Positions 18,709 to 25,438 of a DNA stretch of 64,000 nucleotides are shown here, piece by piece. Position numbers and translations under genes: made by a program. The stretch's first letter is position 1, and every line of letters starts with the position of its first letter. Origin of the DNA: Shimia sagamensis (lineage in GTDB: Bacteria; Pseudomonadota; Alphaproteobacteria; Rhodobacterales; Rhodobacteraceae); assembly GCF_900182745.1 (NCBI RefSeq), contig NZ_FXTY01000005.1, positions 62,001 to 126,000 on the forward strand, read 5' to 3'. The notes under the pieces were generated by a model. The model made no database searches. It had not been told where the DNA came from and saw only the letters and a program-made list of their open reading frames with translations.

Positions 18709-20205
18709 TCAAGCGCCGTATACCGTGCCCCAGCGTTCAATTAGCTTCTGCTGTAGCTTCTTGGCCCGTCCATTGTAGGTGCGCGCGCCCTGTGGCCGCT
18801 CTCTATCCGGCCCAATCAAACGGTCTCGTGCATTCACATCTGCGCCAAATATCGCAAAAGCCAGCTCGCGACCGTCCGGCGTGGTGACATATCCCGCCAG
18901 AGCACTCACAAAATGCAGCGTGCCGGTTTTGGCATTGACCTTAAGCGGATGGGCCTTGTTCACTTTGCCGTTGGAGCCACGCAGCGCAATGGTTTTCAGG
19001 ATCGGGCGCAACACTTGGTGCTGCCCTGCCTGCGCCAACATCACCGCCATCTCATCCGCCCGCAACCGCGAAGCCTCCCCCAAGCCAGAATGATCAACCA
19101 ACGCCGCATTGCGCATGCCCAACGCTTGTGCCGCCCAAGCATTCATTGCCGCTGCGGAGGCTTTCACCGACCCGGGCTGCGCACCGCGCGCTTGACTGGC
19201 CGCCAAGCCCACCATTTCGGCGGTAATGTTTGTAGAGTATTTCAGCATGGCTTTGACAATGGTCTTCAACGCCGGGCTTTGCTTGCGCGCCAGCACCGCC
19301 CCGCGTGGTGCATTGTTGGTTTTCTTTGGCGTCTTAAGCGTGATCCCATGCGCCCGGGCCAGTGTGCGAAACACCTCACCGGCATAAACCTCCGGCTCGC
19401 GCATCGGCAACCATCGTGCGCCACCTTTACCCAGAGCGCCACTGGCGACAGTCCAATGATCACGTCCGCCTTGCGATTTGTAAGTGTACACTGGCACGCT
19501 GCGCTTCACGATTTTCATACGTGCCACATCAACCTCCGGACGGTATTTGTCGCTGCGCCCGTCCATGGCCACAGAATACCCGTTGGCACCGCGCTTCCAC
19601 TCAAAGTGCACCCGATTGTAATTCAGCGCGATGCCGGACACAGCTGGGTTATATCCAGCGTGATCCGGCTGTTTCTTGTCGATCCGTTTTGTCGAGGGCA
19701 AGGCGCCGCCCCAAACCAGAAACTGTCCGGTGACTTCGCGCACACCGGCCGCTTTCAAAGTGCGGGCCAAATCCGCCAGGCCATTGGTGTCCAGTGTCGG
19801 ATCTCCACCGCCTCGCAAAACCAAGTCCCCACGCAACACGCCGTTGGAAATATTGCCCACAGCCACCAGACTGGTCTGAAACCGGTGGTTTGCCCCAAGA
19901 TAGGTTAAGGCGTAAAGCGCCGTGAGAACTTTGGTCACGCTGGCAGGCGGCAAACCATTCGTGGCCTGATGCCCTTCCAGCACCGCGCCATCTCCCATGC
20001 GCGCCACAGCAAAGCTGAGCTTACCACTCAATCCACTTTCCCGGATCAAAGCATCTGCCGCAGGTGCGGACACAGGCAGCGCTTTTACTCCGCCAGGCCG
20101 TAAAACCGGCCGCAACGAGCGCGTCGGCGCGTCTGCCAAAACAGATGTGCCAAGCGACGCGGCACTCAAACTCAAAAACGCACGGCGGGAAAATTCCTTC
20201 GTCAT
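18709..20205 (-). CDS. dacB: D-alanyl-D-alanine carboxypeptidase/endopeptidase (PBP4 family), Tat-exported
   Basis: A 498-residue peptidase S13 protein that trims or opens peptidoglycan cross-links in the periplasm. The N-terminus has a Tat-type signal (SRRAFLS, residues 6-12, then an Ala/Ser/Leu core). The catalytic triad of motifs is complete: Ser89-x-x-Lys92 (ASVTK), SxN in KYSTNITAEM near residue 320, and KTG in NAKTGTLHF near 425. The length matches the family. A Tat signal on PBP4 is common in Rhodobacteraceae. It is divergent from the EamA gene at 20327. Confidence 0.93.
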   Translation of the reverse strand: MTKEFSRRAFLSLSAASLGTSVLADAPTRSLRPVLRPGGVKALPVSAPAADALIRESGLSGKLSFAVARMGDGAVLEGHQATNGLPPASVTKVLTALYALTYLGANHRFQTSLVAVGNISNGVLRGDLVLRGGGDPTLDTNGLADLARTLKAAGVREVTGQFLVWGGALPSTKRIDKKQPDHAGYNPAVSGIALNYNRVHFEWKRGANGYSVAMDGRSDKYRPEVDVARMKIVKRSVPVYTYKSQGGRDHWTVASGALGKGGARWLPMREPEVYAGEVFRTLARAHGITLKTPKKTNNAPRGAVLARKQSPALKTIVKAMLKYSTNITAEMVGLAASQARGAQPGSVKASAAAMNAWAAQALGMRNAALVDHSGLGEASRLRADEMAVMLAQAGQHQVLRPILKTIALRGSNGKVNKAHPLKVNAKTGTLHFVSALAGYVTTPDGRELAFAIFGADVNARDRLIGPDRERPQGARTYNGRAKKLQQKLIERWGTVYGA

Positions 20206-20326
20206 GGGTAAAACATTATCCTTTTGCCCCCTGCGGTTTCAACCCGCCAAGCATCAATTCTCTGTTTGCAATCGCGCACCAATGCGCGGACTTTTTGTCC
20301 CGGTACAAACATGTTACGCCGCAATC

Positions 20327-21202
20327 ATGTGGAAAGTCTTCGTCCTGATGTTTGTTGCCATGTCGATGATCCCCGCCGGGGACACCGCAGGCAAACTCAT
20401 GACCCAAGACCACGGCACCAGTCCGCTCTTTGTGGCGTGGTCCCGTTTTTTGCTTGGCAGCCTTATCGCCCTGCCCCTTGTTCGCCTTGAAACACTGCGC
20501 CTCCTCGCCAATTGGCGTATTTGGCTACGCGCTGCCCTGCTCACCGGAGGCATCACCTGCATCCAAACAGCCCTGCAATCCGCACCACTCGCCGACGTCT
20601 TCGCCGCCTTCTTCATTGGCCCGCTGTTTTCTTACCTGCTGTCTGTCGTTCTGCTTGGAGAGCGTGTTACCCGCACCCGCAGCGCCCTTATGGGCCTGGG
20701 TTTTGTTGGTGTGATGCTGGTTGTCCGCCCAAGCTTTGACATGTCACCCGGTCTGCTCTGGGCGCTTGCCGCAGGCCTGTTCTACGGAGCCTTTCTCACA
20801 GCCTCGCGTTGGCTCGCCCCCTTTGCGCGTCCCACCAGCCTGCTGTTCACGCAGCTGTTTCTGGCAGCTGTGCTGATGACACCCTTCTGTCTGCACCAAA
20901 TCCCGCCAATGACCCCCACTCTTGCAGGGCTGACCGCCATCAGCGCGATCTTTTCAATGGGCGGAAATTTCTTGCTACTGTTTGCCTACGCCCGCGCCGA
21001 AGCGGCCGTGCTTGCGCCGTTTGTCTACCTACAACTTGCCAGTGCAGTTGCCCTTGGATGGCTGGTTTTTGAGGACCTGCCAGACGCCTATACTTGGCTT
21101 GGCCTCACACTGATCATCGGAGCCGGCCTGGCCTCAGCCCTGCTGTCAAAAATCAGAACCGGCGTTCCACGCCAATCTGAAACCCCAACACCCGCGAATT
21201 AA
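20327..21202 (+). CDS. EamA/DMT-family transporter
   Basis: A 291-residue inner-membrane protein with two EamA repeats and about ten helices. The ATG at 20327 begins directly at a first membrane helix (WKVFVLMFVAMSMIPAGDTAGK). The frame is open much further upstream, but that region overlaps the 5' end of dacB on the other strand. The last 50 bp overlap the 3' end of the SLAM-like gene in convergent orientation. The motif PLADVFAAFFIGPLFSYLLSVVLLGERV is typical. It is not closely similar to the EamA protein at 9898. Substrate unknown. Confidence 0.85.
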   Translation: MWKVFVLMFVAMSMIPAGDTAGKLMTQDHGTSPLFVAWSRFLLGSLIALPLVRLETLRLLANWRIWLRAALLTGGITCIQTALQSAPLADVFAAFFIGPLFSYLLSVVLLGERVTRTRSALMGLGFVGVMLVVRPSFDMSPGLLWALAAGLFYGAFLTASRWLAPFARPTSLLFTQLFLAAVLMTPFCLHQIPPMTPTLAGLTAISAIFSMGGNFLLLFAYARAEAAVLAPFVYLQLASAVALGWLVFEDLPDAYTWLGLTLIIGAGLASALLSKIRTGVPRQSETPTPAN

Positions 21203-22430
21203 ACGCCTCGACGTCGCTCTTCATGCGCTCCGCGTCGATTTGAAAGTACGGCGTGTACCCGCCTGGGAGGAACGTGTTTGTCTTCTCCACCCGCAGGCTG
21301 CCGCCGATACCGGTCTCATCCGCATTGTTCACCCAGCTTGCATGCTGTTCCAGCACATCGCGATGGCGCACATACAGCCGTGGCGACAAAGTCCACCCAC
21401 TGCCCACGTCAACTGAGGAGTATACGCTCCACTTAAGGCTCTGATATCCTTGACGCCCCACCCACATTTGATCCGCAGTCCGGCGCTCATAGTAGAGTTC
21501 GCTGCCCACGACGGACCGTCCCCCAACAGACCGGCGAAAACCGGCCAAGGCCGACAGAAAATGACCGTCAAAGGCTGAATTGGCCCGATTGTCCACGGTC
21601 GCATAGGACAAACCGCCATAAGCCGATCCGCCCATCAGACTGCGACGCTCAAACGCGGCTTCCAAACCAAAGCGGTCCTCATAAGGCTCACCAGCAGCCC
21701 ACTGGGTTGTGGCAAACGGCCCAATGGACGCCGTGGTCTTCTCAGACAGTAACCGCAGGCCAAACTTTGCACGCAATTGCACCGTGTCATACCGCCGCCC
21801 TTCGGCTTCCAGTAAATCAAACCCAAGGCTGGCAAATCCAAGCGTATTGGTGGTGCCGTTGGCATTGCCGCCAAGCTCCCGACGAAAGTTCATTGCGCCA
21901 GTTGCCTGCAACGCCGGCACCCGCTCTTCTTCGCCCCGTGTGATGGAAAACGGCAGGACGCCAAAAGCGGTATCCGCATGCACAATATCGCTGTCGTAGG
22001 TCCGAGTGCCCCCAGCCGTTGTAAACCCAAGCGACAAGTCCCAGTCAAACCCACGGCGCGCATCAATTTGCCGGATGAAAGACAAAACTGTCTTGCGCAC
22101 CGGCTCAGGTAAATCTCCGGACAACACGCGGAAAAATTCTTCACGCGACCGCGCCCACTGCTTGGCCATAAAGTAAGCCCGCGCAAGCTCCAGCCGTACA
22201 CGAATGAGTTTGGGATCTTGCGCCAGAATGTTTTGAAGCACCGGAATGGCAATCTCAGGCCGACCGGCATCCAAAGCTGCCATGGCATAATCAAATGCCT
22301 GTTCCACTTCCAATACAGACTGTGGCGGGGTGTTGGCCTCGGCCTGATCCGACGTTACCGCAGTCACTCCCACCAGAAGCGTTAGTGACAGAAGACAGAC
22401 GTGGAATTTTTGAAACAGTGCTTTGGCCAT
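21153..22430 (-). CDS. Surface lipoprotein assembly modifier (SLAM-like) outer-membrane protein
   Basis: A 425-residue exported protein. After a signal peptide (about residues 1-32) there is a tetratricopeptide-like stretch (about 40-130, with AMAALDAGRPEIAIPVLQNILAQDPKLIRVRLELARAYFMAKQWARSREEF), then a long beta-rich region ending in a terminal Phe (GVERRF), as in outer-membrane barrels. This N-TPR plus C-barrel layout is that of SLAM/DUF560 proteins, which in Neisseria move lipoproteins such as TbpB to the cell surface. It lies 86 bp downstream of a TbpB-like lipoprotein gene on the same strand. It is somewhat shorter than neisserial SLAM1. Function is inferred from family and context. Confidence 0.85.
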   Translation of the reverse strand: MAKALFQKFHVCLLSLTLLVGVTAVTSDQAEANTPPQSVLEVEQAFDYAMAALDAGRPEIAIPVLQNILAQDPKLIRVRLELARAYFMAKQWARSREEFFRVLSGDLPEPVRKTVLSFIRQIDARRGFDWDLSLGFTTAGGTRTYDSDIVHADTAFGVLPFSITRGEEERVPALQATGAMNFRRELGGNANGTTNTLGFASLGFDLLEAEGRRYDTVQLRAKFGLRLLSEKTTASIGPFATTQWAAGEPYEDRFGLEAAFERRSLMGGSAYGGLSYATVDNRANSAFDGHFLSALAGFRRSVGGRSVVGSELYYERRTADQMWVGRQGYQSLKWSVYSSVDVGSGWTLSPRLYVRHRDVLEQHASWVNNADETGIGGSLRVEKTNTFLPGGYTPYFQIDAERMKSDVEAFNSRVLGFQIGVERRF

Positions 22431-22451
22431 TCTGGTTACCCTAATTTTTCA

Positions 22452-22510
22452 CTCTTTAAAGAGCCGCTCCCCGCTTTTGCGGAGAGCACGATTTTTTGCC
22501 TGAAAGGCAA
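22452..22510 (-). promoter_or_regulatory. Hairpins between the lipoprotein and SLAM-like genes
   Basis: Three inverted repeats fill the 86-bp gap: TTGCC/GGCAA (22496-22510), a 9-bp stem with one mismatch and a tetraloop (22466-22487), and a 12-bp palindrome CTCTTTAAAGAG (22452-22463). None is followed by a long T-run on the minus strand. They may partly terminate or stabilise the transcript so that more lipoprotein than SLAM is made. Confidence 0.4.
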
Positions 22511-22516
22511 GACGTG

Positions 22517-23431
22517 TTAATCCGCGCCGAACGCACCGGTATAGTTGCCTATGGCACCGTTCATCTCAAAAGTGCCGCCCACTTCTTCTGCGTTATCGCC
22601 ATAAAACACCCCATCCATCGTGCCTGTGCTGGTTGCACTGAAGGCAACAACACCGTTGATATTCGCGCTAAACCCGTTGCCATCAACTGTGCCCGTGCCG
22701 GCAAAGTCCAAATGTGCACCACGCCACGCGTTTCCGCCGGACAGGTTGTTCACGTAAGTGTTTGTGCTGGCCACGCTCACGTTGGAAAAGTCAGACGTGC
22801 TCACCCCCACTTGGGATTCCGCAACAAGTGCGCGACCGTCGGTGGTCACAACCATGCCTACGGACCGGCCGGAATAAGTCGCAGAGCCACTGCTTGGTAC
22901 ATCCGCTGCGGCGGTGCGGCTACCAAAGCTACCAACATTGACGCTGCCGTTATTTGTACCGACACCCGTTGCCCACATTCCGAAAGTCTGGTGATCAAAA
23001 TCAAGCGCGTCTGCGTTGCCCATCCATCCGCGTCTCTGTCCATCGGACGACCGGCTAGTGATCACCAGAGAGTCCATCCCATCATCAATGCGGTCACCGC
23101 CATTGGCGCTAAATCTTGCGGTCCAGCTGCCGTTATTCATCGCAAGATTTTCAAGCTCGCCAACATTTGTCCCAATTTCAAGAGACCCATTACGCGCGGC
23201 TTCCAGACGCTCACTTGTAACGACGCCGTCACCATCGGTCGACATCGCGCCGGAGCGAACACGGCCATTCAATGTCGTATCCCCATGCGCCAGATACAGG
23301 CGGTCGCCCGCCATGTCGTTCAACCGATCGCCAACTTCATTTTCGACATAAGATTCAATTGTACTTTTGCAGCCTGCAATTGACACCAAAGCGCCCACTG
23401 CCATCATGGCTTTGATAGATGTGTTCAGCAT
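22517..23431 (-). CDS. TbpB-like beta-barrel lipoprotein, putative SLAM substrate
   Basis: A 304-residue lipoprotein. The signal peptide ends in a lipobox (Ile18-Ala-Gly-Cys21) with Lys at +2, so inner-membrane retention by an Asp is not expected. The C-terminal 80 residues form Gly/Asn-rich beta strands that finish with a VFYGDNAEEVGGTFEMNG-like signature near residue 275, the hallmark of the handle/barrel domains of transferrin-binding protein B and related surface lipoproteins. The N-terminal half is unlike TbpB and has Asp/Gly-rich turns. Together with the adjoining SLAM-like gene it looks like a surface-exposed lipoprotein; its ligand is unknown. Confidence 0.75.
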   Translation of the reverse strand: MLNTSIKAMMAVGALVSIAGCKSTIESYVENEVGDRLNDMAGDRLYLAHGDTTLNGRVRSGAMSTDGDGVVTSERLEAARNGSLEIGTNVGELENLAMNNGSWTARFSANGGDRIDDGMDSLVITSRSSDGQRRGWMGNADALDFDHQTFGMWATGVGTNNGSVNVGSFGSRTAAADVPSSGSATYSGRSVGMVVTTDGRALVAESQVGVSTSDFSNVSVASTNTYVNNLSGGNAWRGAHLDFAGTGTVDGNGFSANINGVVAFSATSTGTMDGVFYGDNAEEVGGTFEMNGAIGNYTGAFGAD

Positions 23432-23974
23432 TTTCTTGTACCCGCTTGACTATAAGTTCGTTGGTCAGAGAAGAGAGCTGATCTCGACTTGGGTCCCACC
23501 GGCTCACTCTTGAGCATCAACCAAAACTGTTTTCCTTAATGCGGCGTTTCGGTTTCCCTTACAGGACGTTAAGCACGTAAAACCCCATAAAAATTTAGCA
23601 TTATCCAACAAAAATTCAGGCAAAATACGCGGCATAGATCGCCACCAAAAGCGCGACGGTGTGGCGGTAAGAGACCGGTAATGTCTCCGCCAAATAGCCG
23701 ATAAATAGATGCTTCTTGCCATTGGTTGTCAGGCGATCTGGATTACTAAAAAACGCGCAAAAGGCAGACACGTTTAGCCTTTACTAACCAATGCCAGCTT
23801 GTCTCGATTTTTAAGAAAACTCGATTTCTTCAAATTGTGGGGAAACGATCCAATCCGAACACAATTCTTTCCACTCATGGACAGCAATTTCGCGCGACAC
23901 CCTGACGGAATCACCTTTGGTTTTAGTATCAACACCTCAATGTCCGCGTCCCACAGGCTGTCTCAAGGGTTGCC
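23432..23974. other. AT-rich non-coding region upstream of the lipoprotein gene
   Basis: This 543-bp stretch is clearly richer in A+T than the flanking genes. A possible 72-codon frame on the minus strand (23504-23722) has no recognisable sequence and unusual composition. I see no tRNA, no terminator with a good T-run and no convincing Fur- or Irr-type box. It probably holds the lipoprotein promoter and the 3' end of the MazG-like transcript. Confidence 0.4.
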
Positions 23975-24346
23975 TTATTCGGCCGGAGGCTGAAAATGAC
24001 GTCCCCATTTGTTCGCAAAAGCATCGGCCAAGTCGATCCCCTGCCACTCCGCAAAAACAAGCAGGAAACCGAACAAGTCTGCAGACTCATCCTCAAGGTT
24101 CTGCCGCGCGGCGTCATCAGACACGGCACCGCGCTGTGCCCCCTTTGTGGCAAGGTAGGCCGCTTGCAACTCCCCCAACTCCTCAGTCAGTTTGGCAAGA
24201 TACCATGTGGCATCCCGATCAATGCCAAACCGCTCCGCATAGAGGTCACACACCGTTGCCGCTTGCTGGACCAGGGTCTCAAGATCTTGGGACGCTCCGC
24301 GACGTACTTGTCTCTGGGCACACGTGTTAACCTTTTCATCTTCCAA
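23975..24346 (-). CDS. MazG-like nucleotide pyrophosphohydrolase
   Basis: A 123-residue, all-helical protein of the MazG/PRA-PH superfamily, which hydrolyses nucleoside or phosphoribosyl triphosphates to monophosphate and pyrophosphate. The metal-binding ExxE and ExxD motifs are visible as KLTEELGELQ near residue 53 and LEDESADLFGF near 86. The start is uncertain: a TTG at 24346 lies 6 nt after GGAGGT, while the GTG at 24352 is too close to it. It sits 48 bp beyond the end of ruvB and may be cotranscribed with ruvCAB. The substrate is unknown. Confidence 0.75.
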   Translation of the reverse strand: MEDEKVNTCAQRQVRRGASQDLETLVQQAATVCDLYAERFGIDRDATWYLAKLTEELGELQAAYLATKGAQRGAVSDDAARQNLEDESADLFGFLLVFAEWQGIDLADAFANKWGRHFQPPAE

Positions 24347-24394
24347 AACCACACCTCCACAAAACAGTTGTCATACCGACGCAATACCGATGCC

Positions 24395-25438
24395 CTATTT
24401 GCCGTTGCGTGATGGGGTAAACAGATCGTTGGACTCTGTGCGCCGCGGCGCTGACAGCCCCAAATGTTGCCAGGCCTTTTGCGCCAGCATCCGCCCGCGC
24501 GGCGTCCGTTGGATCAACCCTTGCTGCAACAAAAACGGTTCGATGACCTCTTCAATCGCATCGCGGCTTTCGCTCAAGGCCGCGCTGATTGTGTCGATCC
24601 CAACCGGCCCGCCAGCGTAGTTTTCCGCAATAAACAACAGATACCGTCGGTCCGCTCCATCCAACCCGATATTGTCCACCCCAAGCCGCGTAAGTGCGCC
24701 ATCTGCAAGGGATTTTGTGATAATCCCATCACCTTCAACTAGGGCAAAATCCACAACGCGCCGCAGCAAACGGCCGGCAATACGGGGTGTGCCCCGCGAG
24801 CGTCGCGCAATCTCGCGTGCTCCGCCATCCTGGGTGGGCACGCCAAGTTTGTTGGCGTTGCGCGTGACAATCTCATTGAGCTCATCCTCGGTGTAAAACT
24901 GCAATCGTGTTGGAATGCCAAATCGGTCTCTGAGCGGCGTTGTGAGGAGCCCCAACCGCGTCGTCGCCCCAACCAATGTAAACGGCTGCAATTCAATCCG
25001 AACCGTCCGCGCCGCCGGCCCCTCCCCAATCACAAGATCAAGTTCATAATCCTCCATCGCGGGATAGAGAATCTCTTCAACGACCGGGTTAAGGCGATGA
25101 ATTTCATCAATAAAAAGCACATCACGCGCTTCGAGGTTGGTCAGGATCGCCGCCAGATCACCAGCTTTGGCCAACACAGGACCAGAGGTCATCCGAAAGT
25201 TCACCCCCAACTCCCGCGCCATGATTTGCGCCAAAGTAGTCTTGCCCAAACCGGGCGGCCCATGGAACAACGTGTGATCCATCGCCTCTCCACGACGGCG
25301 CGCGCTTTCAATAAAAATCCTCAGATTGGCCCTTGCTTCAGCTTGGCCAATAAACGCATCAAGCTCTTGCGGGCGCAGGGCGCGATCCGCATCTTCAGGC
25401 CGCGCCTCGGGGCGCAATGTAGGGTCTGGCTGTTCCAT
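24395..25438 (-). CDS. ruvB: Holliday junction branch-migration ATPase RuvB
   Basis: A 347-residue AAA+ ATPase that drives branch migration with RuvA. Walker A ([12 protein letters not shown]) is near residue 60 and Walker B with sensor ([10 protein letters not shown]) near 110; the [19 protein letters not shown] segment follows, and the C-terminal winged helix ends in RTPRGRML. It starts 3 bp after the ruvA stop. It is the last gene of ruvC-ruvA-ruvB. Confidence 0.98.

Follow-up and report, generated by a model that had tools for sequence, protein, structure and literature searches.

The closest described relatives of the locus considered here are the type 11 secretion system (T11SS), or Slam, loci. 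According to the extract of a 2017 survey used here, Slam relatives occur in all proteobacterial clades, many of them beside genes for TbpB-like lipoproteins (PMC5449769). A later survey, likewise represented by an extract, gives the number of experimentally verified T11SS gates as seven as of 2025, all of cluster 1, and describes a cluster 3 of 145 sequences, nearly all from marine Rhodobacteraceae/Roseobacteraceae, with TbpBBD neighbours in only 8 loci, with 31 cargo open reading frames, and with a syntenic locus comprising thymidylate synthase, glyoxalase, DUF1194 and lipoprotein cargo genes (PMC12282271). The window analysed here, a stretch of 64,000 nucleotides from Shimia sagamensis (contig NZ_FXTY01000005.1; the genome is termed G000), carries on its minus strand a gene for a lipoprotein (22517-23431), followed by one for a Slam-like protein (21153-22430), the products of which are referred to as the cargo and the gate, respectively. 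The pair is very probably a two-gene T11SS cassette. A sequence-only reading had earlier proposed an export cassette with an unassigned ligand, and domains, predicted structure, synteny and co-decay, on which the assignment rests, support that proposal. Its implication that such a pair would be novel in an alphaproteobacterium does not stand, given the proteobacteria-wide relatives and the marine roseobacter cluster described in the two extracts.

The cargo and gate proteins

The two open reading frames lie where the sequence-only reading had placed them, consecutively on the minus strand, cargo then gate, with a separation of 86 bases. The cargo gene, which encodes a predicted Slam cargo of 304 residues, was delineated by its open reading frame, by matches to PF01298 and slam_lipo, and by alignment with six relatives of the genus. 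Its signal peptide and lipobox (23369-23431), read by eye, are MLNTSIKAMMAVGALVSIAGC, then Lys-Ser; the lipobox is IAGC at residues 18-21, ending, as had been proposed, at Cys21 (codon 23369-23371), and a lipobox can be seen by eye in all seven aligned cargos of the genus. The C-terminal part matches the Pfam family PF01298 (TbpB_B_D) at 44.1 bits (cut-off 26), in agreement with the TbpB-like barrel earlier suggested for it; this is the one such match in the protein. Among solved structures, lactoferrin-binding proteins B are its best relatives by sequence, with E values down to 8.4e-9. The predicted structure has eight strands within residues 184-303, plus one strand of 3 residues, and a Foldseek search with it gives TbpB in the first rows, together with LbpB, NHBA, HphA (from Vibrio and Haemophilus), PmSLP (from Pasteurella), hemophilin and fHbp. 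A second structural comparison gives Z 15.3 with NHBA (145 residues, 2.4 Å) and Z 14.9 with fHbp (155 residues, 2.7 Å). From Pfam, the model and the structural matches, residues 178-303 (22523-22900) are assigned to a C-terminal eight-stranded TbpB-type barrel.

The gate, of 425 residues, is assigned by profiles, model and tree to the outer-membrane proteins of a divergent Slam/T11SS clade. Its structure was modelled from an alignment of seven genus sequences, that of the window among them, and consists of five helices (residues 37-124), then 14 long strands (residues 128-424), with three short strands in the first outer loop; the mean predicted local distance difference test score (pLDDT) is 75.5 and, from residue 171, most barrel blocks lie at 76-95. 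The helical part corresponds to a TPR domain (residues 37-125; 22056-22322), with a TPR_19 match in Pfam at 33.2 bits (cut-off 25). The barrel domain (residues 126-425; 21156-22055) has its best structural match in OmpG (Z 21.3, 255 residues, 3.2 Å) and matches CymA closely (Z 21.0, 268 residues, 3.4 Å), both of which are 14-stranded barrels. The last residue is Phe, so the layout suggested from the sequence, an N-terminal TPR stretch and a C-terminal barrel ending in Phe, is reproduced, including the number of strands.

Placement of the gate among the Slams relies principally on a reference model of 13 Slams from other classes of the phylum (loci L096-L110 without L106 and L108). On this model the gate scores 72.0 bits, compared with 41.2 for the other Slam of G000 (see below), 8.9 for the next frame (L047, itself a weak relative), 4.1 for the one after it, and at most 2.8 for reversed decoys. 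Profile comparison of the gate clade with Slams gives 99.9% over 369 columns, across both TPR domain and barrel, and in a tree of 59 Slams (omitting L107 and L119, which were taken, rather than measured, to be near-copies) the 11 sequences of the gate clade form one group with support of 100/100. Profiles and predicted structure thus indicate homology to Slams over TPR domain and barrel, with both the TPR domain and 14 strands present, and place the gate in a distinct Slam clade. Among ten clade proteins, five exceed the SlipAM cut-off, with scores of up to 51.1 bits, and members with higher scores align to the last profile position; at E 0.01 or better, SlipAM is matched by 30 of the 31 gate relatives in alignment A3 (without L015, L016, L022, L024 and L025, which are cut or broken, L029, L039 and L047, which have long frames, matches lacking a locus, and the later identified G432).

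Linkage, loss and a second lipoprotein

In a family sample of 394 genomes, nearly one per genus, gate matches are present in 43, and are close (at least 150 bits) in 7, including G000. Six of these have the cargo adjoining the gate, and L025, the remaining one, has broken pieces of both genes; the three relatives that carry names are two Shimia and one Rhodobacteraceae bacterium. The gate of L022 has an in-frame stop (TAG), and L024 is cut, apparently at a contig end. Among the 23 further loci with weaker gate matches (L026-L048), only L027 has a neighbour detected by the barrel model, with the neighbour in L028 reaching 22.2 bits against the Pfam cut-off of 26. In one relative a fragment of a second TbpB-type barrel (L023:1-246) lies upstream of the cargo, which suggests tandem cargos.

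Within the genus, 25 genomes were compared. A gate match is present in 10 and TbpB_B_D in 9; the gate is intact in 8, and an intact paired cargo is present in exactly the same 8, with no intact TbpB_B_D gene found in the other 17 at E 0.001. That both genes are intact and side by side in seven genus genomes besides G000, and that reversed decoys reach so little, puts the pair beyond chance. The two genomes with truncated gates both lack an intact cargo, and these truncations are the informative events with respect to co-loss. In G021 a deletion extends from behind ruvB into the gate (at approximately residue 183), inside which there is also a contig break; since ruvB there directly precedes this point, the MazG-like gene, the cargo and the TPR domain have been lost, and the sole TbpB_B_D gene found in that genome is broken. 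The gate of G011 is reduced to its C-terminal part and adjoins a frame that resembles a transposase (named by eye); a PF01298 search found no cargo in that genome. G022, another genus member that lacks the pair, has a different Slam (L088, 76.8 bits); a TbpB_B_D gene was not found there.

The pair is a movable cassette, with two different genomic sites in the genus. The pair, or its remnant, adjoins eamA in 7 of the intact genomes and in G021. In G003 the order is dacB, eamA, MazG-like gene, ruvB, with nothing between, and the pair is at another site, between metallo-hydrolase-like and arginase-like genes (named by eye); in G011 eamA is next to ruvB without the pair.

A second TbpB_B_D gene occurs at one conserved site, between nitrile hydratase genes and purA, in 7 of the 25 genus genomes (nitrile hydratase was assigned by Pfam in G000, the neighbours otherwise by eye). 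It is intact in G432, G018, G009, G010 and G016, where its product shares 30-34% identity with the paired cargo, is broken in G000 and G021, and was not found in G003 or G019. The broken copy of G000 (L005:7604-8320, i.e. G000:C4:448103-448819) is at the place where the gene is intact in the five relatives. Searches with PF04575, the clade profile and the other Slam of G000, of which that with PF04575 is not exhaustive, found no other Slam in these five genomes, and none in 7 of the 8 with an intact gate. It may therefore be that one gate serves two cargos, which is the simplest reading for the five relatives. One Neisseria Slam serves several lipoproteins.

G000 itself has a second Slam with a lipoprotein (G000:C2:417088-418482; L004:6260-8486), in a locus with thymidylate synthase, dihydrofolate reductase, glyoxalase and two DUF1194 genes, i.e. 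the published cluster 3 arrangement, with the difference that its thymidylate synthase belongs to PF00303, whereas the cluster 3 figure legend in the extract has a flavin-dependent enzyme (PMC12282271). This Slam is 14% identical to the gate, and its cargo scores 18.3 bits for TbpB_B_D (cut-off 26). It is unmatched in the other genus genomes that bear the pair, and has distant matches (30-32%) in three without it. A PF04575 search of G000 returned this other Slam only, not the gate; the gate clade is partly missed by domain searches, and Pfam-based Slam censuses accordingly miss part of the family. The clade includes a small pair from a marine genus, relatives that have lost the gate naturally, and a second cargo encoded in trans, and would thereby allow cargo dependence and the recognition site to be tested directly.

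Proposed export route, rival readings and the surrounding locus

The lipobox suggests that the cargo would leave the cytoplasm through Sec, receive its lipid at Cys21 and be delivered to the outer membrane. By homology, the unfolded cargo would then be received by the periplasmic TPR domain and passed through the 14-stranded barrel of the gate, and would fold, with its eight-stranded barrel, on the outside of the cell while remaining lipid-anchored; this mechanism is proposed because passage of unfolded TbpB through Slam1 in proteoliposomes, helped by Skp, has been reported (PMC9090332, in extract). The variable N-terminal half of the cargo may be the working part, binding something outside the cell. 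In the five relatives, the same gate probably exports the second, unlinked lipoprotein of the same family.

Several results weigh against the cassette reading. In Pfam, the gate is below cut-off for TPR_Slam (25.3 bits, cut-off 35.2) and for SlipAM/DUF560 (18.5 bits, cut-off 22, 52 residues aligned), and the SlipAM cut-off is missed by 5 of the ten clade proteins; the DUF560 assignment of the sequence-only reading thus holds as a real match on the 13-Slam model and falls short of the Pfam threshold. No Slam chains are present among the PDB matches listed, either by sequence or by fold, an observation that excludes nothing. The cargo scores 41.9 bits (cut-off 80) for the NCBIfam family slam_lipo ('Slam-dependent surface lipoprotein'), and its model is usable from approximately residue 175, with pLDDT below 50 for residues 1-174. 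Ail, an unrelated outer-membrane barrel, also matches the cargo (Z 12.7), which means that the shape of the barrel is not by itself distinctive. In an EamA tree of 23 of the 25 genus genomes (omitting G013, with no match, and G019, with a cut gene), those without the pair group together, by one change with support of 86/81; this clustering implies few independent events, and co-occurrence was therefore set aside as statistical proof. The searches were not exhaustive: even the gates of G000 and G016 escaped PF04575, and PF01298 did not detect the divergent cargo at the other Slam locus of G000. The second Slam means that the cargo could use either in G000. Finally, divergence of gate and cargo is only loosely correlated, at 0.50 in seven same-site genomes and 0.84 over all 11.

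Hemophilin and HphA are among the structural matches of the cargo, and part of the cluster 3 cargo is termed haemophilin-like in the extract of PMC12282271; a Slam system releasing a soluble, hemophilin-like cargo, e.g. for haem or metal capture, is nevertheless improbable, since all seven aligned genus cargos show a lipobox by eye and neither TonB nor haem oxygenase was found among the neighbouring genes scanned. Nor is there a TonB-dependent receptor among these genes, the remaining window not having been scanned for one, in line with the earlier statement that none is adjacent. The truncated gates of G011 and G021, the breakage in two relatives, L022 (by an in-frame TAG) and L025, and the broken second lipoprotein gene of G000 itself could be taken to mean that the gate has drifted from transport and that the pair is decaying, i.e. 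a former Slam system. This possibility, which overlaps with the cassette reading, is slightly less probable again, because both window genes are open over their full length, lipobox, C-terminal Phe and TPR domain are retained, and both genes are intact in 8 of the 25 genus genomes. It is scarcely credible that the gate serves to export exopolysaccharide in the manner of BcsC/PelB, with the lipoprotein an incidental neighbour or periplasmic accessory: PelB and BcsC are near the top of its Foldseek list and VexE and PrsT models are among its TPR matches, but the likeness is limited to TPR and general barrel shape (the VexE match spans TPR residues 48-102 only), the 14-stranded barrel finds its best structural alignments in OmpG and CymA, the gate scores 72.0 bits on the reference Slam model, six of the seven genomes that carry a close relative of the gate have a TbpB-type lipoprotein as its partner, and no polysaccharide gene was found among the neighbouring genes scanned.

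The gate diverges unevenly (7 or 11 gates and cargos were compared, and 5 genomes for the DNA profile). Divergence of its barrel far outpaces that of the neighbouring genes and does not track that of the cargo. In seven same-site genomes mean identity is 82% for the TPR domain and 60% for the barrel, within which it is 47% for predicted outer loops and 65% for strands. In G018, G009 and G016, DNA identity to G000 is 73-86% at 19651-21090 (the dacB end and eamA), 51-66% at 21271-21990 (barrel part), 74-80% at 21991-22170 (TPR) and 67-70% at 22171-22350; there is no drop over the barrel part in G010 (73-82%). Compared with G000, the cargo and gate are 83% and 58% identical, respectively, in G016, and 56% and 64% in G009. 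These sequence data are compatible with recombination as well as with diversifying selection acting on the barrel. It is possible, if rather doubtful, that the gate is modular, with the conserved TPR domain responsible for cargo recognition and with the barrel exchanged or diversified independently of cargo, perhaps as a surface target of phages or predators, such that one gate would serve a linked and an unlinked lipoprotein.

The spacer between the two genes (22431-22516, minus strand) contains two predicted stem-loops (22466-22487 and 22451-22464), assigned from folding z-scores and paired changes. The z-score is -3.2 in G000 and from -2.8 to -5.5 across six folded genomes, with no more than 2 of 200 shuffles folding equally well. 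In the seven-row alignment 81.5% of cells pair, and 7 of 14 pairs have changed on both sides (equalled in 2 of 500 shuffles); pairing falls to 42-57% when the partner is slid, a comparison in which the structure is favoured, having been derived from the window sequence. The spacers of G009 and G432 have different folds. One guess is that the hairpins set cargo expression above that of the gate. Directly upstream of the cargo gene, 23432-23610 is well conserved in 6 of 7 aligned rows, with no element identified, and no Rfam families were found over 20000-25000 at gathering scores.

The flanking genes lie outside the system. On one side, an EamA permease gene (20327-21202, plus strand; identified by open reading frame and Pfam) is convergent with the gate gene, the 3' ends overlapping by 50 bases; on the other is a PRA-PH/MazG-like gene (23975-24352, minus strand), which together with eamA borders the empty site in a relative. 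The neighbours scanned encode, in addition to these two, D-Ala-D-Ala carboxypeptidase, RuvB, RuvA, RuvC, PrmA and a histidine kinase.

Comparison with known secretion systems

Pairs of a Slam with a lipoprotein have already been published for Alphaproteobacteria, including marine roseobacters, with Shimia unmentioned in the literature matches listed for the pair. All nine same-class Slam loci retrieved from outside the family (L111, L112, L114, L115, L117, L118, L120, L123 and L124) have a neighbour detected by the barrel model, so Slam-cargo pairing is not rare in the class.

The pair resembles Slam1/Slam2 of T11SS cluster 1 (Neisseria, Moraxella; cargos TbpB, LbpB, HpuA and fHbp) in the combination of TPR domain and 14-stranded barrel, in the C-terminal eight-stranded TbpB-type barrel of the cargo, and in linkage of the genes, which is frequent in those systems. 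By contrast, its Pfam score is below cut-off, its cargo has one barrel rather than two lobes, and no receptor is present among the scanned neighbours; at 425 residues the gate is also shorter than the 13 reference Slams of other classes (480-519 residues), which were not checked to be from Neisseria. TbpB itself has two lobes, each made of a handle and a barrel, and tbpA as a neighbour; the single barrel, and a TonB receptor being absent among the scanned neighbours, led to rejection of the cargo as TbpB proper.

With the cluster 3 locus, as described in the extract of PMC12282271, the pair shares the families Rhodobacteraceae/Roseobacteraceae and the combination of a Slam with a small lipoprotein that has a C-terminal barrel. 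Thymidylate synthase, glyoxalase and DUF1194 genes characterise that locus and differ from the neighbours scanned in the window; assignment of the window pair to it was therefore rejected. NilB-NilC of Xenorhabdus nematophila, as described in the extract of PMC5449769, is likewise a Slam beside a small outer-membrane lipoprotein, with a role in host colonisation, in another lineage; the likeness is one of description. By comparison with these systems, the window pair is a genuine Slam-cargo cassette, ordinary in kind, and a new branch of a known system.

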